Part shown: piece by piece, positions 3,761 to 62,375 of the stretch | Layout of the letters: the number at the start of each line of letters is the position of its first letter | Numbering within the stretch: position 1 is the first letter of the stretch | From: a virus | Virus record (IMG/VR): IMGVR_UViG_3300025770_000019 | Coordinates: 1-62,375 of that record | Direction: 5' to 3' (one strand) | Length of the DNA stretch: 62,375 bases | Notes under the pieces: model-generated | Told to the model about the DNA's origin: nothing | Database searches by the model: none | The model's input: the letters and a program-made list of their open reading frames with translations, nothing else | Translations under genes and position numbers: made by a program

Positions 3761-4840
3761 ATGGAATCAACCATCGAGTTAAACTACTCATCCATGAAGA
3801 CCGCGATCATGGCGAACGTCGACGCGATTGACATGACGCCAATCATGATCACCGGTGCGCCGGGGTGTGCTAAGACCTCAGTGTGTTTAGACGTAGCGGA
3901 GTCTTACGGCATCCCGCGTAATGTTGCTGAACGCTGTATCTTTCGTCCGTCGTTGCGTGACCCAGTTGACCTTGCCGGGCTTCCGCATAACGAGCGCGAC
4001 GAAGACGGCGTACTGTATACACATTGGGCGGCTAATTCGTTCATCAAGTACGTCAACGACGTTGCTGCTAAGTACGGCATTGCGTTCTTAATAGTCGACG
4101 AGCTACCGCAAGCCGTGACCATGATGCAGAACGCACTGGCAGGGCTGATGCTTGACCGCTTCGTCGGGTCTAACTTCCTGCACGAGCGGGTGTTCCTACT
4201 ATCAACGGGCAATAGGGTGAAGGACAAGGCGGGTGCTGGTCGCATCGTCAGTCAGTTGGGCAACCGAGTGGAACACTTGCCGATGGCGGTCGACATTGAT
4301 GCGTGGGGTAAGCACATGATTGACACCTACGGATTTGATCGTGTCGGTATGTTCGTAGCGTACGTTCGCTTCGAGCCGGGTGTACTGGAGGACATTAACC
4401 CTGATCGAATGGTCAACGGTACGATGCGCTCATGTACAGCAGCAGCGATGATCAACCCTAAGTTGCCTCGCAACATATACCTAGCTAAGTTAGCAGGGCG
4501 CATACCCGAGGGCAGAGCCATGCAGTTCTTGACGTTTCGTGACCTGTTCGATGAGTTGCCCACAGCTGAGGCCATGCGTAACACACCTAAGACTGCCAAG
4601 TTACCGAACGGTAACAGGGGTGCGCTGTTTGCAGCGGCGTCACTTGCGTTCAAGCGATCCGAGGACGAGGCGTCGTTTAACGCAATGGCGAAGTACGTCG
4701 AGCGTATAGCGACAGAGGCGCTGGAGGCAGACATTGAAGCGTTCTTCTACAAGGACATAATGATACACAAGCAAGCGCTTGCCGAGACTAACGTGTTCAT
4801 TGAGTGGGCAACAGGTCGAGGCGCGGAGGTACTGTTATGA
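3761..4840 (+). CDS. MoxR-family AAA+ ATPase
   Basis: A 359-aa ATPase. Walker A is GAPGCAKT at residues 32-39, Walker B is LIVDE with Asp113/Glu114, a sensor-1-like segment follows (FLLSTGNR), and an arginine-finger candidate occurs near QLGNRVEHL. MoxR ATPases act as chaperone-like remodelling motors, usually with a VWA-domain partner. The next gene encodes exactly such a protein and overlaps this one by four bases, so the two are very likely made together. AAA+ remodelling of a host or phage complex is inferred; the substrate is unknown. ATG 3761 has a weak purine-rich site (AAAAAGAGGAATAAACAA). Confidence 0.85.
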   Translation: MESTIELNYSSMKTAIMANVDAIDMTPIMITGAPGCAKTSVCLDVAESYGIPRNVAERCIFRPSLRDPVDLAGLPHNERDEDGVLYTHWAANSFIKYVNDVAAKYGIAFLIVDELPQAVTMMQNALAGLMLDRFVGSNFLHERVFLLSTGNRVKDKAGAGRIVSQLGNRVEHLPMAVDIDAWGKHMIDTYGFDRVGMFVAYVRFEPGVLEDINPDRMVNGTMRSCTAAAMINPKLPRNIYLAKLAGRIPEGRAMQFLTFRDLFDELPTAEAMRNTPKTAKLPNGNRGALFAAASLAFKRSEDEASFNAMAKYVERIATEALEADIEAFFYKDIMIHKQALAETNVFIEWATGRGAEVLL

Positions 4841-6108
4841 CATCAGTAACGGTTAAGACAAAAGAAGGGGCGACGATGCGAGTTAAGCTAGTTGACCGCA
4901 GCGACATACCGGCCACGGTTAAGGTGTTCAGCCGAGCAGCAGCAGACATAATGTGCAACCCGAAGACAGGGTTCTACTCTGCGTTACTCATGCAGGTGCC
5001 GGTGCACTGGACTAGAGACATACCGACAGCCGGTGTGGACATTAAGGCGCGCATGTTCATCAACCCTGACTTCATAGATACACTGGAGTCGTTGGGTAAG
5101 GTGGTGTTCTTGATAATCCACGAGCTTGAGCACTTGCTACGGCTCCACCCCCAACGGGAAGCCAACCGCGACCCTGACAGATGGAACAAAGCGTGTGACG
5201 CGCCGATCAATGCCGACCTTGTTAAAGACAGGATAGGATCGTTCATCATGGGCGGTGTGGACATGCCCGAACACGCTGGACATACAGCAGACCATGTGTA
5301 CAACCTACTACCTGCTAAGAAAGAGGAGGAGGATGGAGATGGAGGTGAAGGCGGACAGGGAGGGGACAACCCCGGTGACGACTCCGGGGGCGACGGCGGT
5401 ATAGGTAGGGACGTGTTCAGTAAGGACTTACTGGAAGGCGGCAAAATGACAGCCAGTGATGTGCAAGCAGCGGAGGCCCACGTTAAGGGAGTAATTGCAG
5501 CAGCAGCTCAGACAGCACGAGTGGCTGGCTCCATGTCGGCAGAGATGCAGCGACGTGTTGACGACATACTCGATGTGAAGACACCGTGGTACGAAGTGCT
5601 TGAACGCTTCATGACTGAGGTATCCCAGAATGATTACTCATGGGCGCGACCTAACAGAAGGTTCGCATCACAGGGGATCGTGCTGCCATCACTGCACAGC
5701 GTAGCTGCGTTAGGTACGGCGGTGCTGATACGTGATGTATCGGGTTCAATTAGTGAGGACGAACACAAGGGAATGGTAGGGCATATTAACGCCATCGGTA
5801 CTAGGTGTATGCCTTCTATCATGCACGTGCTCGACGTGTCTACTGAGGTGCATTACAACCACGAGTTTGAGCCTAGTGACTTTCCCATCAGCCCTGAGAT
5901 ACATGGCCGCGGCGGCACTGACTTAACTGTCGGGTTCGACTACATCAATGAGAAGATTGAGGACGTAGCCATATGTGTCGTACTCACCGACGGGCATACA
6001 CCTTGGCCTAACATTCCACAGGACTACCCTGTAATAGTCGTGTGCACAACGGACGTTGACGTCGAGTACGGCGACGAGGTTGTGAGATACGAAAAGGAGA
6101 CTGGATGA
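4837..6108 (+). CDS. DUF2201-like putative metallopeptidase with VWA domain
   Basis: 423 aa from ATG 4837 (GGAGGT just upstream). The N-terminal half has a zinc-protease-type HELEH motif (His95-His99). An acidic Gly-rich linker (about residues 165-190) separates it from a C-terminal VWA-like domain. The MIDAS residues are visible: D300-V-S-G-S, Thr361 in GGTD, and Asp385 in LTDGH. This architecture matches DUF2201-type proteins paired with MoxR ATPases. The MIDAS should bind a divalent metal and a protein partner; proteolysis is possible but unproven. Stop overlaps the next gene's ATG. Confidence 0.85.
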   Translation: MTSVTVKTKEGATMRVKLVDRSDIPATVKVFSRAAADIMCNPKTGFYSALLMQVPVHWTRDIPTAGVDIKARMFINPDFIDTLESLGKVVFLIIHELEHLLRLHPQREANRDPDRWNKACDAPINADLVKDRIGSFIMGGVDMPEHAGHTADHVYNLLPAKKEEEDGDGGEGGQGGDNPGDDSGGDGGIGRDVFSKDLLEGGKMTASDVQAAEAHVKGVIAAAAQTARVAGSMSAEMQRRVDDILDVKTPWYEVLERFMTEVSQNDYSWARPNRRFASQGIVLPSLHSVAALGTAVLIRDVSGSISEDEHKGMVGHINAIGTRCMPSIMHVLDVSTEVHYNHEFEPSDFPISPEIHGRGGTDLTVGFDYINEKIEDVAICVVLTDGHTPWPNIPQDYPVIVVCTTDVDVEYGDEVVRYEKETG

Positions 6109-7569: not shown

Positions 7570-8283
7570 ATGGCAACAGTAAGAGTAACAAACGAGTTGC
7601 GGGACAAAATTAAAAACCTCGCAGTAAAAGCGTTCGACCTAGCGAAGCCAGTGCCAGTGCTTGACCAGCCTGACGTTGTTAGGTTGTGCACCGCCGTAAC
7701 CACCAGTAAGACGGGGCAGGAGATGAACACGATTGCTTCCATGCTGGAGGCTATCTGCGCACGCGGGGGGGCCGTGGGGGGCCAAGCCGAAATGAAGTTC
7801 TTCGGCCTCGATTCGGTGCGCCTCAAGCAGGAAACGCTTGACCACATCAGCGTGTACTTCAAGCGAAAAGGTGATACTAAAGGCCAGCATGTAAACCTTG
7901 AAGTTCCGACGGTGTTCATGGTTGCGGAAGGTAGATGGGGCGGCGGAAGTTCTGATATACATACTGCCATGCTGGACGAGGATGACCACGCCTACTTCGA
8001 CCTCGCGTTTAACAAACTGGCGGACAAGCTAGAAGCGCGAAGTGATGAGTTTAATGCCTACAAGAGCCAAATCGCGCGGTTACTTGACGGGTGCAACACG
8101 TACAAGCAACTGCTTGAAGCGTGGCCTCAAGTCACTGCGTTCACTCCGCAGGAAATACTCGACAGGCACAACGAGAAAGCAGAGAAGCGTAGCCGAGGTA
8201 AGCTGGTGCGGGATGAGATTGAGTTCGACACCGACACCATGAATCAGGTAGCGGTGAAAGCGAAGCTCACTGGCAAGCTGTAA
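7570..8283 (+). CDS. Hypothetical protein, possibly Nmad5-like, 237 aa
   Basis: AAAGGAG precedes ATG 7570. The C-terminal part (NTYKQLLEAWPQVTAFTP) resembles the ending of small phage proteins annotated as 'nucleotide modification associated domain 5', often of similar length; the N-terminus (VRVTNELRDKIKNLAVKAFDLAK) also fits that pattern. Nmad5 has been linked by context, not by assay, to modified phage DNA. The final residues again show VKAKLTGK. It is the last gene before a non-coding control region. Confidence 0.5.
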   Translation: MATVRVTNELRDKIKNLAVKAFDLAKPVPVLDQPDVVRLCTAVTTSKTGQEMNTIASMLEAICARGGAVGGQAEMKFFGLDSVRLKQETLDHISVYFKRKGDTKGQHVNLEVPTVFMVAEGRWGGGSSDIHTAMLDEDDHAYFDLAFNKLADKLEARSDEFNAYKSQIARLLDGCNTYKQLLEAWPQVTAFTPQEILDRHNEKAEKRSRGKLVRDEIEFDTDTMNQVAVKAKLTGKL

Positions 8284-8388: not shown

Positions 8389-8565
8389 GGTTACTCGGAT
8401 AAGCGGTGAGTGCCGTTAAAACCGCCGCAGTTGAAGGACGTGGTTTTTTGTTGGTGAACCTCCTTTTCCCACGTCTGATTCAACCGTCTAGCTCACGCTA
8501 CGAGCTATAACACCTGCACGTAATGTGGTTTGGTGCGGTTAACTATGCAACTAAGGGGAACAATC

Positions 8566-10503
8566 ATGGCTTTAACGCCAGTGTTTTACGACTTTGAAAC
8601 ATTCTGGTCAGTCGCTCACTCACTATCAAAAATGTCGGGCATTGAGTACGTAATGCACCCCGACACAGAAATCATTTCATGCTCCATCCAAGAAGGGTTT
8701 AACGATACGCCAGTTACATACTTCGGATACGACGACATTGCTGATGCGTTCGCCCACATAGATTGGGACAACGCGTGGGCTATTGCTCACAACAATTCTG
8801 AGTTCGACGCTATGATTCTAGCGTGGCGTTTCCACATTAAGCCTAAGATGTGGGGGTGCACGTTAGCAATGGCACGCCCCGCGTTCACTAAAACTACAGG
8901 CGTGTCGCTCAAGGCACTGGGTAAACACTTCGGCTTAAAGCCTAAAGGTGACTTAGAGGCAACCAACACCAAGGGTAAGAACCTTAAGGACTTCAGTGAC
9001 GATGAACGCGAAGCAATGGCGGACTACAACGACGACGACACTATTATATGTGCGGGGATTTTCCGCAGGTTGCTGCCGACTATACCCAAAGAAGAACTGC
9101 GACTAATAGACTTGACTATACGTATGCTCGTTGACCCGCAGTTCGATGTGAACACTGAGCTGCTAGGCCGGGGGCTTAAAGCTGAACGAGGTCGCAAGAA
9201 GAAGGTGCTACAAGACTTGGTTGACCTTCTCCTGCCGGTTGAAGATCAGGTCAGGCAAAAACTGGAAGGTGTAGACACGCTCGTGTGGCTACAAGGCGAA
9301 CTAAAATCCGCACCCAAGTTCCGCAAAATGCTGGAGTCTCTCAAGGTAGAAGTACCTATGAAAGAGTCGCCCAACACAGGGCGTATGATTCCCGCTCTCG
9401 CTAAGAACGACCAACAGTTCCTCGCACTTAAAGACCATCCTAACGAGTACGTCGTAGCAGCAGTAGAAGCACGACTCGACACACAGTCATCCATCCTTGA
9501 GACACGCATGGACAGGTTCATTAAAGTCGCCAACATGTGCGATGGGAAAATGCCTATTGCCCTGCGTTACTACGGAGCCGACACTACAGGAAGGTTTTCT
9601 GGCACGATGAAACTCAACCAGCAGAACCTAACTCGCGTCGGCCCCGTACCTAAGATCAGCGACGTACTACGCAAATCACTGCGTGCACCGAAGGGGTACA
9701 AGGTGGTGGTTGCTGACCTGAGCGGCATTGAGTTGCGGGTCAACATGTTCTTGTGGCAAGTGCCGTATGCGGTGAAGCTGTTTACGGAACACCCCGACAG
9801 CGCTGACCTATATCGCTACTTCGCGGCTAACGATCTATACCACAAGCACGAGTCAGAGATAACCAAAGCCGAGCGCCAACTAGGTAAGGTATCGCATCTG
9901 GGACTTGGGTTCGGTGCTGGTCATGTGACGTTCCGTGACGTAGCTAAAGTTATGGGCGGCGTTGAACTCACCGAAGCTGAGTCGTTAGACGTAGTAGGTA
10001 AGTACCGTAAGGCCCACCCGCAGATTACACAGGGCTGGCGTAAGTGCCACGGATCGCTAGACCTAATCAAATCAGGGCTACGTGCTGACATTGATCCATG
10101 TGGGTTATGCCACACGTCAGCCGAGGGCATCGTTACACCGAAGGGTACTATCAGGTATCCCGACCTGCGTACTGAGATAGACGGCGGCAATGCTGAGTGG
10201 TGGTACGGTCACGGTCGTAACGAGGCGCGTATCTACGCCGGGAAAATAGACGAGAACATCGTGCAACACCTCGCGCGTAATGTGATCACTGACATTGCCT
10301 TGGACATGCACACTGCGTTCGGTAAGCAGTACCCGCTTGCGCACAGCGTGCACGACGAGCTGGTGTACGTAGTTAAAGACCAAGACGCCGACGAAATACT
10401 TGATACGGTACAAACACGAATGCGCCAGTCACCCGACTGGTGGCCTGAACTGCCGACATGGAGTGAGGGTGACATAGGACAAACTTATGGAGATGCGAAA
10501 TGA
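8566..10503 (+). CDS. Family A DNA polymerase with 3'-5' exonuclease
   Basis: 645 aa from ATG 8566 (AAGGGGAACAATC upstream). The N-terminal 3'-5' exonuclease begins with YDFET (Asp9, Glu11). Polymerase motif A is VVADLSGIELR (Asp384), motif B is R437-QLG-K441-VSH-L445-GLG-F449-G, and motif C is HSVHDE (Asp597, Glu598). There is no 5'-3' exonuclease domain. By alignment to E. coli Pol I, Leu445 stands where Phe762 is, and Phe449 where Tyr766 is. Replicates the phage genome. The stop overlaps the next ATG. Confidence 0.95.
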   Translation: MALTPVFYDFETFWSVAHSLSKMSGIEYVMHPDTEIISCSIQEGFNDTPVTYFGYDDIADAFAHIDWDNAWAIAHNNSEFDAMILAWRFHIKPKMWGCTLAMARPAFTKTTGVSLKALGKHFGLKPKGDLEATNTKGKNLKDFSDDEREAMADYNDDDTIICAGIFRRLLPTIPKEELRLIDLTIRMLVDPQFDVNTELLGRGLKAERGRKKKVLQDLVDLLLPVEDQVRQKLEGVDTLVWLQGELKSAPKFRKMLESLKVEVPMKESPNTGRMIPALAKNDQQFLALKDHPNEYVVAAVEARLDTQSSILETRMDRFIKVANMCDGKMPIALRYYGADTTGRFSGTMKLNQQNLTRVGPVPKISDVLRKSLRAPKGYKVVVADLSGIELRVNMFLWQVPYAVKLFTEHPDSADLYRYFAANDLYHKHESEITKAERQLGKVSHLGLGFGAGHVTFRDVAKVMGGVELTEAESLDVVGKYRKAHPQITQGWRKCHGSLDLIKSGLRADIDPCGLCHTSAEGIVTPKGTIRYPDLRTEIDGGNAEWWYGHGRNEARIYAGKIDENIVQHLARNVITDIALDMHTAFGKQYPLAHSVHDELVYVVKDQDADEILDTVQTRMRQSPDWWPELPTWSEGDIGQTYGDAK

Positions 10504-14377: not shown

Positions 14378-15364
<987 letters not shown>

Positions 15365-15750: not shown

Positions 15751-18660
15751 ATGAAAGCATCTGATTTCTTGAAGGCTGTGACGCCTTCTGAGGGGGTGTT
15801 GTTCGCGGCTGTGCCAGTTCGTTTTGAGAAGGACGGACGGACTATAGATTACTTCAAGCATACCGTGTGCTACACCCATGACGACTTAGCACTACAGTGT
15901 AAGGCCATAAGCCAGCAGGGGGACAACGCGTTCTTTGCGCTGGCTAGTTTCAAACAAGAGTCTTACATAGACAAACGCACGAGCAAGAAAAAACAACGCA
16001 CCCAAGAGAACGCAATGCTCGCTAGAAGTATGTGGCTTGACATTGACTGCGGAGAAAACAAACCGTACGCAACTCAGCTAGATGGCATAGCTGCGCTACG
16101 AGCAGGGTTCAAGGCGGCTAAGTTACCAGCCCCTACGTTCACAGTAAGCTCAGGGTACGGCGTCCATGCGTACTGGACGTTCACTAAAGACATACCTAAA
16201 GCCCTGTGGATACCAGTGGCGCAACTATTCAAGGCTGTCATGGACGGCACTGGATTGGTTGCCGATAAAGTCACGGCTAATATTGCGTGTGTGCTGCGGC
16301 CTATAGGCACCAACAATTATAAGCGAGGGGGAACGCAAGAGGTCAGGGTGCTGCACAAAGCCAAGTCTGTCCGCTTCTCTGACTGGGCGCGCGCACTCAA
16401 GAAAGCCAGTGGCGACCTGAAAGTTACGCCCCCAAAGCAAAGACTGACCACTACACTTAACAGCGCACTGAGTGGCGGTATGGATGAGTACCCGCCATCT
16501 GACGCGGAGAAGATCGCAGACAAGTGCGCAGTGCTTAACGAAATGCGTAACTTCAAAGGGTCGACGCACGACGAGCAGCAGTGGTATAGCTGCATTGGGG
16601 TACTCAGACACACAACCCAAGGGGAAGACATAGTTCAGGGGTGGTCAGCAGGTCACCACGACTACGACCCAATCATTACCACGGATAAGATAAAACAGTG
16701 GGAAGATCGAGGGCCGACGCTATGTGACACCATGCGCCAGTTGTTTCCAGCCTGTGCCGACTGCAAAATGAAATGTAATTCTCCAATATCGTTGGGGTAT
16801 CCCGATCCTGAACACCAGACCACCGTTGAGGTTATACAAGACGCCACGGACGAAGTGGTACTAGAAACCCTGCCGCAGTTGCCCGACGGACTGAAAGACG
16901 AGTTCGCATGGGTAGAGGGGCGGGGTTTGATGGCTAGGCTGGAGGATGAAGATGGTAACGTACGCCACGTAGTTGTGTGCTCCCAGTTCCCAGTTCCAGA
17001 GTTCATATTTTACGATAAATTATCCGAAGCCTTCTACGTACGAGTGTCAGCACGAACCGCACCGTACACATGGCAGAGCGGAGACCTTCCACTCGACGTA
17101 GTTCAGCGTGGGGGCGTTAATTTAATAGGAGCACTAGGTGGTAAGTGCGCAGTCACAGTACGTGACGATGGCAGGCTACTGGTGAAGTTTATGAAGACAT
17201 GGGTTGACGTAATACGGCAGAGCACAGACCTGCAAACTATGCGTGACCAAATGGGATGGCAGAAAGATGGGTCGTTCCTACTGGGTAAAACTTTGTACAG
17301 ACCCGACGGTGAGATAAAAGACGTCGTCGTTGCACGGAGCCTAGCGAAGTACGCAGAGTCGCACACACCTAAAGGCGACCGCCAAGCGTTCGTGGACACG
17401 ATTGACAAGCTGTACAACAAACCGAATTATCAGGAGTACCAGTTTCTTTGGTTGGCCTCCTTCGGGTCGCTACTTATCAAGTTCCTGCACTCTCACAACA
17501 TCGGTATAACACTGGCAGCTTACTCACCGGACAGCGGTACAGGTAAGACGTCGGTCGCTAAGGCGGCCATTGCAAACTTCGGCGACCCCAGTGGGTTCGG
17601 CCAACAAGCAGACGGACAAGACGGAGCGACCGAGTACGCCATAACCGTTATGGCAGGGCTGAGACACAACCTACCGATACTTATCGACGAGGTAACTAAC
17701 TGGGAACCCAACAGGCTAGGCAAGTTTCTCTACCGTGTGTGCAATGGTACAGCTAAGGTACAGGGCAGCGCCGACGGTGGGCTACGAGACTCGTCAGCGT
17801 ACAACTGGAACTCAGTTAGTTACATCACCTCGAACTCCCCCCTCGCATCTAAAGTTTCATCCGAAACTAAGAACAGCCAAGCCCAGTTAGCACGACTGTT
17901 CGACATTAAGTTCTACAACAAAGGGTTTGATACGCAGGACTCAGTGCTATTCGAGAAACTGTGGCAGCACTCAGGTAACACAGGCGCTGAGTTCGTTGAA
18001 TACGTAACAGTGAACCAAGACAAGGTGTCTAAGATATGCCACAAGATGCTAGACCGACTGAACAAAAAAGCTGAGGCTAATCAAAGCGCCCGGTTCTGGA
18101 TGATGCTGGCAGCGGCGACGCTAACCGCAGCGCACATCACACGCCAGTTAGACATGCACCAATTCAACATAGATGAGCTGGAGGATTGGACGATACAACG
18201 CATTAAAGAGATTAGGGTGGTGGCAGACAGGTCAGTAGAGTCGGTTGAGGACATGGCGCGGTCGATGATGAGTGACTTCCAGAACGGCATGGTTGTCACG
18301 ACTGATGAGGCTAAACGTGTCACAGACTTCACCCCATTTGCACCGGGGTACGGAGCGCCACGGCAGTCAGTGCGAGGGCGGTACATAGTCAGTACGGGCG
18401 ACATAATGATCCCCGTCGGTATCATACGTAAGTGGTGTGCAGAGAACAGCGTCGACTACAGCGACTTCAGGCGTCGGTTAACGGATAAGAACTGGATGGT
18501 GGACGCTGACTTACGGTACGATGTTGGTAAGGGAACGTCAGTAGCGTCGACGAGATCACGCTGCTGGAAACTAAACTTTGAAAGCGCAGCGCATGTACTG
18601 TCTGTGATTGAACCGGGAGAGAACGATGGTAGCCAAGAAGACCAGCAGCAAGAGCCGTAA
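15751..18660 (+). CDS. AEP primase fused to DUF927-like helicase, 969 aa
   Basis: The N-terminal third is an archaeo-eukaryotic-type primase: WLDID (Asp97, Asp99) and SSGYGVHAYW (His139) are the metal and nucleotide-binding motifs. A PriCT-like helical segment with a Cys cluster (CADCKMKC) follows at about 250-350. The C-terminal half is an ATPase of DUF927 type: Walker A PDSGTGKT (residues 593-600) and Walker B ILIDE. Such fusions prime and unwind the replication fork. Works with the Pol and SSB-like proteins. ATG 15751 has a strong AGGAAGGTGG site. Confidence 0.9.
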   Translation: MKASDFLKAVTPSEGVLFAAVPVRFEKDGRTIDYFKHTVCYTHDDLALQCKAISQQGDNAFFALASFKQESYIDKRTSKKKQRTQENAMLARSMWLDIDCGENKPYATQLDGIAALRAGFKAAKLPAPTFTVSSGYGVHAYWTFTKDIPKALWIPVAQLFKAVMDGTGLVADKVTANIACVLRPIGTNNYKRGGTQEVRVLHKAKSVRFSDWARALKKASGDLKVTPPKQRLTTTLNSALSGGMDEYPPSDAEKIADKCAVLNEMRNFKGSTHDEQQWYSCIGVLRHTTQGEDIVQGWSAGHHDYDPIITTDKIKQWEDRGPTLCDTMRQLFPACADCKMKCNSPISLGYPDPEHQTTVEVIQDATDEVVLETLPQLPDGLKDEFAWVEGRGLMARLEDEDGNVRHVVVCSQFPVPEFIFYDKLSEAFYVRVSARTAPYTWQSGDLPLDVVQRGGVNLIGALGGKCAVTVRDDGRLLVKFMKTWVDVIRQSTDLQTMRDQMGWQKDGSFLLGKTLYRPDGEIKDVVVARSLAKYAESHTPKGDRQAFVDTIDKLYNKPNYQEYQFLWLASFGSLLIKFLHSHNIGITLAAYSPDSGTGKTSVAKAAIANFGDPSGFGQQADGQDGATEYAITVMAGLRHNLPILIDEVTNWEPNRLGKFLYRVCNGTAKVQGSADGGLRDSSAYNWNSVSYITSNSPLASKVSSETKNSQAQLARLFDIKFYNKGFDTQDSVLFEKLWQHSGNTGAEFVEYVTVNQDKVSKICHKMLDRLNKKAEANQSARFWMMLAAATLTAAHITRQLDMHQFNIDELEDWTIQRIKEIRVVADRSVESVEDMARSMMSDFQNGMVVTTDEAKRVTDFTPFAPGYGAPRQSVRGRYIVSTGDIMIPVGIIRKWCAENSVDYSDFRRRLTDKNWMVDADLRYDVGKGTSVASTRSRCWKLNFESAAHVLSVIEPGENDGSQEDQQQEP

Positions 18661-58343: not shown

Positions 58344-59822
58344 TCAAGCATACAAGTATTTAGACTGAACAACCTCTCGGCGGGTCGAGCGTTTCTGCAC
58401 CCCCCTTACCGCCATGTCGATCACGCTATCCGCATATTGGTTCGCGTCGTGGACGTGGGAAAAGCTGTTTTTGTCTGGTGAGTTCTCTAGTTGACCATCG
58501 CGTTTCTTCTTGTATCGGTATCCATAAATAAACCCTTTAACCAGTTTGTCACAGCATGGGTCAATAAGATACATCGCCTCACCGTCGACCTGCGTCGCTA
58601 ACAACCTCTCCACCGCTTGGATTCTGTAGTCTGGTTTGTTCGACGGTGGTTTAACGCACTCATACCCTGCATTACGCAGCGCGTCGACTAACGTCAGCTC
58701 GTTGAGCTGCTGTTTCATAAACCCCGCAGGGTCAGGTGCGCATATCAACTCACACCCCGGATAGTGCTCGGCCACGTGCGGCGTGAGTTTCAGCCGGATG
58801 AACGTCTCTATCCCCATATTATCCGAGGTAATCTCTGACAGGGTCAGCACCCGCCCACGTGGATCGCGCTGCTTAAACACCGCCGACGGCGTCCGCCCGA
58901 AGTCAACCCCTATAATTATTGGGTAGTCAGTCGTTACACTGGCTGCGAGTTTAGTCAGCGGCCCCTTCGCCACATGGAACTCTTTGTTGAACGACTTGTC
59001 GTACACCGGGGTGCCAGCCAGTGAGCGGCCGTACCGACAGCGTAAATACACATCGACAAAATCCTGAGACTTACCGGGTATGATATCCGGGTAATACAGC
59101 GGGTCTAGGTTGTTGTAGTTGTCCGCTTCCGGATTCACGTACCACTCCGCGTCTTGGGCGTCGGGTATCGCTTCCCCTTCAGGACTTTCCCCGAATTGTG
59201 TGTGCCACTCCTCAGCCGAGTACACAGCTGGCGGCTGCATATGGATCGACCAGTTCTTAGGCGGGTTCTCCATCTTGTCAAAGTGCCACGAATCCTGATC
59301 GGGCATGTTCGTATCGAATATAGCGCCTGACCTCGACGGGCCGCCGTCCTTACCCGATGGATACCGCCGGAGCCGCATTAACAGGCCATCACAGACATCT
59401 GGGTGCAGCTCCCGCCACTCATTACCCCAAAGGAACGTCGCTTCCAGTGATAACGCCTTACGTACGTCATCAGGTGTGTCCAAGGCGATGAACATAAATT
59501 CCGCCTTCATTGTCGTGCCGTCCGGAAGCCTTTGATTCACAAAGTACGTTTTGTTCTGCGAGGCGACATACGTGCCCCACTTCCCCGGTGGGAACCAATC
59601 AAAGAATGTTTTCATCGTCGTCGACTTCAACTGGTCAGCCGTGTTCCGGACTATGAGCGACCTCGTTTTCCGCTCCCCATCAGCATTCGGCGCTTGCAGC
59701 ATGGCGAGTTTCATCAGCTCGTGGCTGGCACACACCGATTTCCCCGACCCAACTGGCCCAGCTATAACACGGACATACTTGTTCGACTCCATCATGTCCC
59801 ACATGGTCTGCGTAGTCTGCAT
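58344..59822 (-). CDS. terL: Terminase large subunit, 492 aa
   Basis: ATG 59822 shares a base with the small-subunit stop (TAATG). ATPase domain: Walker A GPVGSGKS (residues 22-29), Walker B region ATFLWGNEW. Nuclease domain begins IIIGVDFGRT with Asp307. It packages DNA into the prohead and cuts it. Ends of the genome are thus generated by this enzyme; the 157-bp terminal repeat may be its product. Confidence 0.92.
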   Translation of the reverse strand: MQTTQTMWDMMESNKYVRVIAGPVGSGKSVCASHELMKLAMLQAPNADGERKTRSLIVRNTADQLKSTTMKTFFDWFPPGKWGTYVASQNKTYFVNQRLPDGTTMKAEFMFIALDTPDDVRKALSLEATFLWGNEWRELHPDVCDGLLMRLRRYPSGKDGGPSRSGAIFDTNMPDQDSWHFDKMENPPKNWSIHMQPPAVYSAEEWHTQFGESPEGEAIPDAQDAEWYVNPEADNYNNLDPLYYPDIIPGKSQDFVDVYLRCRYGRSLAGTPVYDKSFNKEFHVAKGPLTKLAASVTTDYPIIIGVDFGRTPSAVFKQRDPRGRVLTLSEITSDNMGIETFIRLKLTPHVAEHYPGCELICAPDPAGFMKQQLNELTLVDALRNAGYECVKPPSNKPDYRIQAVERLLATQVDGEAMYLIDPCCDKLVKGFIYGYRYKKKRDGQLENSPDKNSFSHVHDANQYADSVIDMAVRGVQKRSTRREVVQSKYLYA

Positions 59823-60361
59823 TATGAAGCCTCAAACAAATTTGACGCTGCCGGGGGTAAAATACTCAACGGCTCCACCTCCTCAAACTCCGCGTCTTGG
59901 ACGTCGACGGTCGTCACTGGAGGGGTCGCAACCCCGAAGTTGTGTACAGCTCCGTCAGGCGCAACGATGTTCAGCACCAATTGCGGCCCGGCTGCTCCAG
60001 TTTCGTCGGTTTTCGGCGGTTCGAGTCCGCCGTATTTCACCAGAGTCTTAAAAGCGTCCAGTTGGGTCGACGCCGGAACATCCGCGTCCGCCATCATATG
60101 AACCACGTTATGAACGGAGTTTGTTACCGCCGACCGGCAGCGGGAGCGGAACGCCGTGCCGTCGTCGTCCACCACCTGCTGGGCAATTCTCATGCGGCGG
60201 GTGAACAGGGGGTCGGTTTCGAGAGCCTGTGCTGTGGCCTCATCAATGTCGTAGTTATCGCATATGTCTACGTACGAGTTTACGCCTACCGCAAGGTCTA
60301 TGAAAAATTCTTCCGGTAGAGATTCGATGGACAGTGCTGGCAGTTGCGTCGTGTCTGTCAC
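59822..60361 (-). CDS. terS: Terminase small subunit candidate, 179 aa
   Basis: GTG 60361 (no strong site) opens the late arm. Helical with DIDEATAQALETDPLFTRRMRIAQQVVDDDG and a helix pair VHNVVHMMADADVPASTQLDAFKTLVKYGGLEPP, then a beta/acidic C-terminal part. Position directly upstream of TerL and the pattern fit a DNA-recognising small terminase. Likely binds the packaging start in the control region. Confidence 0.75.
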   Translation of the reverse strand: MTDTTQLPALSIESLPEEFFIDLAVGVNSYVDICDNYDIDEATAQALETDPLFTRRMRIAQQVVDDDGTAFRSRCRSAVTNSVHNVVHMMADADVPASTQLDAFKTLVKYGGLEPPKTDETGAAGPQLVLNIVAPDGAVHNFGVATPPVTTVDVQDAEFEEVEPLSILPPAASNLFEAS

Positions 60362-60418: not shown

Positions 60419-60437
60419 GGGACAAATATCGGGACAG
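60419..60437 (-). promoter_or_regulatory. 17-bp operator-like element, late-arm copy
   Basis: GGACAAATATCGGGACA (60420-60436) lies 59 bases upstream of the terminase small-subunit start. Its exact reverse complement occurs at 61832-61848. A weak late promoter (TTGTCC at 60424-60419 on the minus strand) would overlap it, so it may be an operator for the late genes. Confidence 0.6.
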
Positions 60438-61077: not shown

Positions 61078-61683
61078 ATGCTCACTACCCAAGAAATCAA
61101 CACCAAAATCACGGGTGTCCGTACTTCTGTCTCTAACCTGCGAACTAACATGCAGGTAGTCTTAGTGAATCTGGCTGGACATACTTACGAGCATGGCGAC
61201 GTGCGTGCAATCAGCGCACTGACTAAACGCCTGCTGGACAACTCACTTCAAGGCGTGGATATCAAGGCTGTTGTCACGTATCTGCGTGACTACTGTTTCG
61301 TGCATCCACAGGAAGATGGAACTGTGAAGCTGAACAAGAAAGCTCGCACTGAAGCTGATTTTGCTGATGGCGACGCTGTTGTGCAGCACCTCATGGCTGA
61401 AGTACCTGCGTGGTATACGAAGGCGCAAACTGTATCGGACGCATTGAAAGACCTGAACGTGCCGAAAAGCATCCTGCGGATTGCTGAAAATGCAGTCAAG
61501 ACAGATAAGGCTGGCAACGTAGCGTTCAACCTCGTTTGTTCACCTCGTGAGCTTGATGAGGCGCTCACTACGCTGGCAACTAACCTGAAGATTCGACGCG
61601 ACAGCGATAACCGTGTCAGCTCGGAGATCAAGGAAGGTCGGCTGATCGAGCAGCGTGAGGAAGGCGTAGCTGTAAACGCCTAA
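61078..61683 (+). CDS. Hypothetical protein encoded alone in the control region, 201 aa
   Basis: AAGGAGAGCGAT before ATG 61078. Helical (NTKITGVRTSVSNLRTNMQVVLVNLAGHTYEHGDV, ISALTKRLLDNSLQGVD), with a charged end. Similar proteins ('INTKI...hAheHGDV...L..rLl') occur in podoviruses, function unknown. It is the only + strand gene at the right end, with its own hairpin leader and a terminator-like hairpin behind it, so it is probably expressed independently and early, perhaps as a regulator. I do not claim a DNA-binding motif. Confidence 0.75.
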   Translation: MLTTQEINTKITGVRTSVSNLRTNMQVVLVNLAGHTYEHGDVRAISALTKRLLDNSLQGVDIKAVVTYLRDYCFVHPQEDGTVKLNKKARTEADFADGDAVVQHLMAEVPAWYTKAQTVSDALKDLNVPKSILRIAENAVKTDKAGNVAFNLVCSPRELDEALTTLATNLKIRRDSDNRVSSEIKEGRLIEQREEGVAVNA

Positions 61684-61694
61684 GCGCCAAGTGT

Positions 61695-61725
61695 GGGGAG
61701 TTTCGGCTCCCCTAGCTTGTTTATG
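61695..61725 (+). terminator. Hairpin terminator behind the 61078 gene
   Basis: GGGGAG, loop TTTCGG, CTCCCC (61695-61712), followed by TAGCTTGTTTA. Strong short stem with UUCG-type loop and a weak T-rich tail, 12 bases after the stop codon. Confidence 0.65.
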
Positions 61726-61769
61726 TGTACTTATACGAGTAGGCATAAACAAGTTACGCAATACGTAAC
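61716..61769. repeat. Inverted repeats at the left edge of the iteron region
   Basis: A perfect 10-bp inverted repeat CTTGTTTATG (61716-61725) / CATAAACAAG (61744-61753), with an 18-base loop. A second one, GTTACG/CGTAAC (61753-61758, 61764-61769), begins on its last base. Confidence 0.8.
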
Positions 61770-61791
61770 GCTGTTGGTGTGTAACGCACTT

Positions 61792-61815
61792 CTGGACAAA
61801 AAGCTGGACAGAAAT
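61792..61815. repeat. 24-bp direct repeat, copy 1
   Basis: Identical to 62080-62103. Each copy holds GGACAAAAA and GGACAGAAA spaced by 12 bases, a paired-site arrangement that could bind a dimer on one helix face. Confidence 0.95.
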
Positions 61816-61831
61816 AGCACGTTTTCAAAAG

Positions 61832-61848
61832 TGTCCCGATATTTGTCC
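61832..61848 (+). promoter_or_regulatory. 17-bp operator-like element, left-arm copy
   Basis: TGTCCCGATATTTGTCC is the exact reverse complement of 60420-60436. Read across the circle junction it points to the early left-arm genes, as the other copy points to the late arm. Confidence 0.6.
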
Positions 61849-62079
61849 AAGCTACAGGCCACTAGAAATCACACTCTTACTTACTTTAGGACAAAAGGAC
61901 ATTTTTATAGAGAGAGAACGATAATATCTAAGTCACCTAGTGCCTTATTGTGTGAAACGCCACTTCATCATTTAGTGGTTCTTTCCTATATACACCCCCC
62001 TTCTCTCCAGATTTCTGTCCATTTGTCCCAAACACGCGTAACACCATGATATATATAAAGAATAACTTGGACAAAAGTG

Positions 62080-62103
62080 CTGGACAAAAAGCTGGACAGA
62101 AAT
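62080..62103. repeat. 24-bp direct repeat, copy 2
   Basis: Exact second copy of 61792-61815; a further GGACAAAA lies 11 bases before it (62069-62076), making a triple site. Confidence 0.95.
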
Positions 62104-62124
62104 GCACCCGCAAATCTGTCCCAA

Positions 62125-62184
62125 TACGCTATACGTGAGCACACAACCACGTTACGCTACTTGTATATATTTACGTATAGCGTA
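62125..62184. repeat. 12-bp inverted repeat
   Basis: TACGCTATACGT (62125-62136) and ACGTATAGCGTA (62173-62184) are perfect reverse complements around a 36-base centre with TTGTATATATTTA. It lies 35 bases before the terminal repeat; possible melting site, operator or end-cutting site. Confidence 0.85.
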
Positions 62185-62218
62185 AACTACACCTACCACA
62201 AACTAGTACGGGAGTAAC

Positions 62219-62375
62219 GTACGAGCGAGATATGTTTTCTGGACAAAACGCCCCGACATATGAGTGCCGCGCACCCAGAGTAACAACCCAACCCACCACC
62301 AAAAAGGAACGACAATGACAAAGCCAAAGTACAACAAGACACAAGTGAACTTCATCATCTCAAAACTGCGCGAGG
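62219..62375. repeat. Terminal repeat, right copy
   Basis: Second copy of bases 1-157 with C at 62249 in place of T31. Joins the iteron region to the first left-arm gene. Confidence 0.95.
62315..62375 (+). CDS. Partial copy of the first left-arm gene
   Basis: The ATG at 62315 corresponds to ATG 97; the first 20 codons are identical and the window then ends. It is the same gene seen through the terminal repeat, not a second gene. Confidence 0.85.
   Translation, partial: MTKPKYNKTQVNFIISKLRE

Follow-up and report, generated by a model that had tools for sequence, protein, structure and literature searches.

What role is played by a dense array of short repeats in the non-coding DNA of a phage genome? 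The window analysed here, a stretch of 62,375 nucleotides, is a complete IMG/VR record (IMGVR_UViG_3300025770_000019). It belongs to an uncultured podophage, and its portal homologs are found in the HMO-2011 group, in RHph_TM3_14A-type Rhizobium phages and in Pseudomonas phage Rollin. Rightward genes in the first 19 kb are devoted to replication and encode a family-A DNA polymerase (8530-10503), an SNF2 helicase, an exonuclease and a primase-helicase, and leftward genes between 19 and 60 kb serve structure and packaging. The array is located between a gene for a 201-amino acid protein (61078-61683, plus strand, phrog_1448) and the first rightward early gene.

The original prediction described a dense GGACA(A/G)AA array at this place, and the array proved to be real. 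Twelve GGACA cores were found in the ~330-base stretch 61794-62121 (Poisson p 3.6e-10, given that the rate in the rest of the genome corresponds to ~0.9 GGACA per 560 bp), and a thirteenth is present at 62241. Shuffling of the local sequence (n=2000) yielded 0.75 GGACA on average and never more than 4, and 61690-62375 as a whole contains 13 compared to 1.1 expected from the remaining genome. The exact GGACARAA sequence occurs 11 times in the whole window against 3.57 expected, a number reached in 0 of 100 shuffles, and 7 of these 11 matches fall within 61794-62248. The predicted count of at least a dozen copies therefore holds for the GGACA core (13) but not for the exact motif (7 in 61794-62248). 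Isolated matches elsewhere had also been anticipated; exact 8-mers are indeed present at 7602 and 54230, but not at 10478. Sites were confirmed on both strands, with same-strand spacings of 12, 8, 13, 12, 12 and 8 bp, as was the pairing of some of them in 24-bp repeats, with exact copies at 61792-61815 and 62080-62103.

The array stretch is flanked by the 201-aa gene, whose stop codon is at 61683, and by the next start that seems plausible, at position 98 (equivalent to 62316), and to that extent it is gene-free as predicted, although a 118-aa ORF that nothing marks as a gene (61693-62049) overlaps it. Its A+T enrichment is only moderate (56% for the stretch and 61% for its core, compared to 48% for the genome). 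Short sites packed more densely than chance allows, outside coding DNA, are what an iteron origin would be expected to display. Searches of the array region with Rfam and for tRNAs gave no match, nor did direct blastn against cultured phages. Scans of viral contigs with exact 17- and 20-mers returned, outside the phage itself, isolated matches in unrelated contigs that we read as chance, among them one within a terminase gene of contig L009.

The array was originally placed next to a genome junction with a terminal repeat. The ends of the record share an overlap of 157 nt that contains a single mismatch (31 T/62249 C), and contig L003 contains this overlap once and reads on from window position 62375 into 1-1529. 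This places the array inside a circular or concatemeric genome, and the supposed junction is an artefact of where the record was cut rather than a physical end. The array had been said to continue into the terminal repeat, and an iteron is indeed found there at 62241-62248 (plus strand), but 23-30 is the same physical site and not an additional one. GC skew reaches its minimum at 60106 (~60.1 kb), where gene direction also switches, and at third codon positions there is almost no skew; the skew is uninformative with respect to an origin, in either direction.

Motif counts and spacing resolve the array (61790-62125, 12 cores in both orientations) into several parts. On its left side are the first copy of the 24-bp repeat, which consists of two iterons 12 bp apart (61792-61815, plus strand), and another pair 12 bp apart with the sequence GGACAAATATCGGGACA (61832-61848, minus strand). 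An architecture scan identified two tandem pairs with an 8-bp period that face each other, the left one (61889/61897) at 61889-61901 on the plus strand and the right one (62016/62024) at 62016-62028 on the minus strand. They enclose a 114-bp core (61902-62015) that is purine-rich on the left and pyrimidine-rich on the right. Its position and shape are common to the window and to the related records L004, L046, G016 and G029, and we predict that this core is the strand-opening site. To the right are three iterons spaced by 13 and 12 bp that include the second 24-bp copy (62069-62103, plus strand) and a single iteron (62117-62121, minus strand). Farther away, the divergent region that precedes the 201-aa gene contains another pair 12 bp apart (60420-60436, plus strand), which shares the 17-mer of 61832-61848; whether it is a member of the array is uncertain.

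A search of related phages uncovered corresponding arrays in distant relatives, built from different words. In L004, whose counterpart of the 201-aa gene is 36% identical, a dense TAAGACA array directly follows that gene, L046 contains 11 copies of TGGACA in 600 bp, and the equivalent place in other relatives is occupied by TTAGACA, TTGGATA, TAGATTT or TCTAGA. Each word is dense solely in its own array or in arrays of the same class. Among the records read, 26 carry a homolog of the window's primase-helicase gene (15751-18660), and clear arrays were found in 17 of these (G000-G004, G006, G013-G016, G019, G021-G024, G028 and Pseudomonas phage Rollin). The arrays of G020 and RHph_TM3_14A are weak, G005, G017 and G018 have the gene and no clear array, and G007 and G025-G027 are incomplete. 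The predicted arrays of Rollin and RHph_TM3_14A are located at about 250-690 and about 19.4-20.1 kb of their respective records. An array is also present in G029, a fragment without the primase-helicase gene. G021, G022, G023 and G028 have both array and primase-helicase without recognisable portal or terL matches. Conversely, the portal relatives HMO-2011 and CRP-212, which lack the primase-helicase, showed no comparable array in the ~50 kb read of each, a small control set. Roseobacter phage CRP-212 does have five CTCGATC, mostly intergenic (L275:45951-46400), with a score below that of most arrays.

Several other elements were observed in or near the arrays. One, approximately AACCCGCATGNATACTGGGCT, is found in or beside arrays of phages with different words and is rare elsewhere in those genomes (G001:56267, G003:34439, G004:29560, G013:33405, G014:52143, G019:44817, G021:34279, G023:1271 and 1468, G005:2899 and L032 ~4680-4850). 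Another, AAGTC(A/G)TTGATTTTAAAGG, is shared by several arrays (G002:56908, G003:34644, G004:29773, G014:51928, G005:2628 and RHph_TM3_14A L104:8768), with close variants in L039, L046 and G013. In Pseudomonas phage Rollin (L277:1-500), an A+T-rich stretch free of genes contains four palindromic AAAAGGTAGTAACTTACTACCTTTT-type sites that look like operators, next to the TTGCATA array, and phages of the TTGGATA class have repeated GTGTGTATACACAC palindromes near their arrays (L066:4800-5520, the ends of G002, and G003:33951).

The spacing of the sites is much more uniform than their letters. Across dissimilar words there are 59 same-strand steps of ≤40 bp, of which 25 measure 8 bp and 11 measure 12 bp. 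Facing 8-bp tandem sets around a core of ~85-120 bp are present in the window (114 bp), G016, G029, L046 and L004, and the core is wider in G014 and G004. When any 5-mer was allowed, the inward-facing period-8 architecture was detected in 9 of 28 records compared to 0-1 in shuffled genomes; the same scan returned period 9 in 6 records, which may be coding repeats. A constant grammar with varying letters suggests one type of protein assembly whose DNA-reading domains have diverged.

The candidate for that protein is the 969-aa product of 15751-18660 (plus strand), a predicted initiator in which an AEP primase is joined to a DUF927/MCM-like helicase, with a winged helix at the C-terminus. A profile built from 14 members matched SCCmec Cch (5dgk, 3.3e-26), SaPIbov1 Rep (8tch, 9e-23) and a PrimPol (6zp9, 5e-4), and there is a match to Pfam DUF927 with 4.7e-21; by sequence, its helicase domain is homologous to SaPI Rep and Cch. 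The C-terminal region (18286-18657, plus strand; residues ~846-969), the predicted reader of the iterons, was modelled with a helix-helix-strand-strand order and a core pLDDT above 90. Its nearest solved folds are the winged helix of TcpK, whose structure was solved with oriT DNA, SaPIbov1 Rep and Cch. These matches are weak (E 0.09-0.5 overall, 0.13-0.5 for 8tch and 5dgk), and PF18662, the Pfam Cch HTH, matches weakly 7 of 58 homologs (best E 0.0015). The modelled C-terminus is probably a winged-helix DNA-binding domain. The initiator gene is ~16 kb from the array on the circle, and not adjacent to the origin as is rep in SaPIs. In RHph_TM3_14A, the homologous primase-helicase gene EVB41_076 (L104:31240-34323) is publicly annotated as a putative integrase. 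Near the initiator gene of the window, nine CTGAGCC repeats (15102-15213) lie in a proline-rich region of a 328-aa ORF (14378-15364).

Comparisons between genomes indicate that the word tracks the initiator gene and not the portal gene. The portal of G024 is 75-76% identical to those of G013 and G019, yet its sites are TAAGACA, a class also present, alongside TTAGACA, in the array of G016. In the C-terminus of its initiator, G024 shares 75-77% identity with G015 and G016; the portals of these two have only 50-51% identity to that of G024. G005 presents the reverse case, sharing 81-82% portal identity with G001-G004 but having an initiator only 24-25% identical and no TTGGATA array. The C-terminal domain of the window initiator has only ~20-27% identity to the others, and the apparent link between word and C-terminal domain has few independent lineages behind it.

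Could the array instead be a multi-site operator or enhancer, also raised in the original prediction, through which the 201-aa protein or another repressor controls the rightward operon of early genes together with the divergently oriented late genes? The array is upstream of the early genes and near the divergent switch, the matching pair at 60420-60436 is in the divergent region itself, and many sites in both orientations would suit either use. However, lineages that carry an unrelated gene in place of the 201-aa gene still have arrays, and the G029 array is on the 5′ side of that gene. Moreover, promoters are not enriched in the region (2 found compared to 2.2 expected), and facing sites around a core are atypical of operators. 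We consider an operator function unlikely as the main explanation; it may be a second role of the array, alongside that of origin. The 201-aa protein is probably not the binder and was rejected as such, because its model gave no fold match and its gene is not conserved between lineages. Most homologs of this gene do conserve an H-x-Y-E-H-G-D motif.

A pac site to which the small terminase subunit would bind is considerably less probable still. The large terminase gene (58344-59822) is ~2 kb from the array, and repeats occur in some pac sites. However, terL of G015 and G016 is 81-83% identical to that of G013 and G001 while the words differ, such that the site sequence does not follow the terminase, and arrays with the same grammar are present in the phages without terL or portal match. 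We give equally little credence to a partition-like centromere or to host-factor binding sites, since repeated sites in both orientations are also found in centromeres but the words vary between phages and appear to track the initiator, and no partition genes were recognised among the part of the window's genes that was scanned.

We therefore return to the replication origin. The origin reading is favoured because relatives keep the position and geometry of the array with a different word, and because the array accompanies an initiator of the SaPI Rep/Cch family with or without related structural genes; on these grounds the suggestion of origin iterons is better supported than that of an operator. 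We think it very probable that the array is the origin of the phage, started by its own primase-helicase, with both binding and origin activity inferred; it would best be described as an iteron origin of the SaPI/Cch type, carried by a family of podophages. In the mechanism we propose, several copies of the primase-helicase would bind GGACA iterons via the C-terminal winged helix, and the inward tandem sets (61889/61897 and 62016/62024) would position two helicase assemblies in a head-to-head arrangement over the 114-bp core. Opening of this core would be followed by helicase loading, after which the fused AEP primase would prime for the phage family-A DNA polymerase. The outer 12-bp pairs could provide extra binding sites or tune initiation.

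Whether all phages with an AEP-primase/DUF927-helicase share one origin grammar (8- and 12-bp steps, inward tandem sets and a ~100-bp core), with a word that co-diversifies with the winged helix of the initiator, is a question on which we are evenly divided. If they do, these phages would offer a natural, readable code of protein-DNA specificity as well as phage incompatibility groups. Because the word appears to change with the initiator, the recognition rules could be tested by domain and iteron swaps in reporter plasmids. For most tailed phages the origins are unknown, and an origin and initiator can now be predicted for a broad set of uncultured phages that includes two cultured lineages, Pseudomonas phage Rollin and the RHph_TM3_14A-type Rhizobium phages. 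The prediction also links the replication of tailed phages to the initiators of SaPIs and SCCmec.

In the literature searched, we found neither an origin described for HMO-2011-like phages nor a system of the type proposed here. Direct iterons also serve as initiator sites in lambda-type O origins and iteron plasmids, but there DnaB is recruited by initiators that are not themselves helicases, whereas the predicted initiator of the window is itself a primase-helicase. The alpha protein of phage P4 is such a primase-helicase fusion and recognises iterons in both orientations (ori/crr), as proposed for the window; the word and layout of ori/crr are unlike those of the window. The SaPIbov1 Rep/ori system has a self-loading helicase related to DUF927; the C-terminal domain of SaPI Rep binds short origin iterons, and Rep is thought to bind as two hexamers (PMC7581432). 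It differs from the window in the word, layout and number of its iterons, and the window has a primase-helicase fusion, an array ~16 kb from the gene and a tailed-phage rather than a satellite genome. SCCmec Cch is the closest solved sequence match to the window initiator, and Cch2 binds a putative origin at its direct repeats through the C-terminal domain (PMC7581432), but that origin has three 5-nt iterons beside cch2 compared to twelve here, and the primase-polymerase is separate. By sequence, the window helicase is a member of the same family, and the system probably works like the Rep-origin pairs of SaPIs and SCCmec; new with respect to these would be the ~16-kb distance between origin and gene, the number and geometry of the iterons, and the primase fusion.
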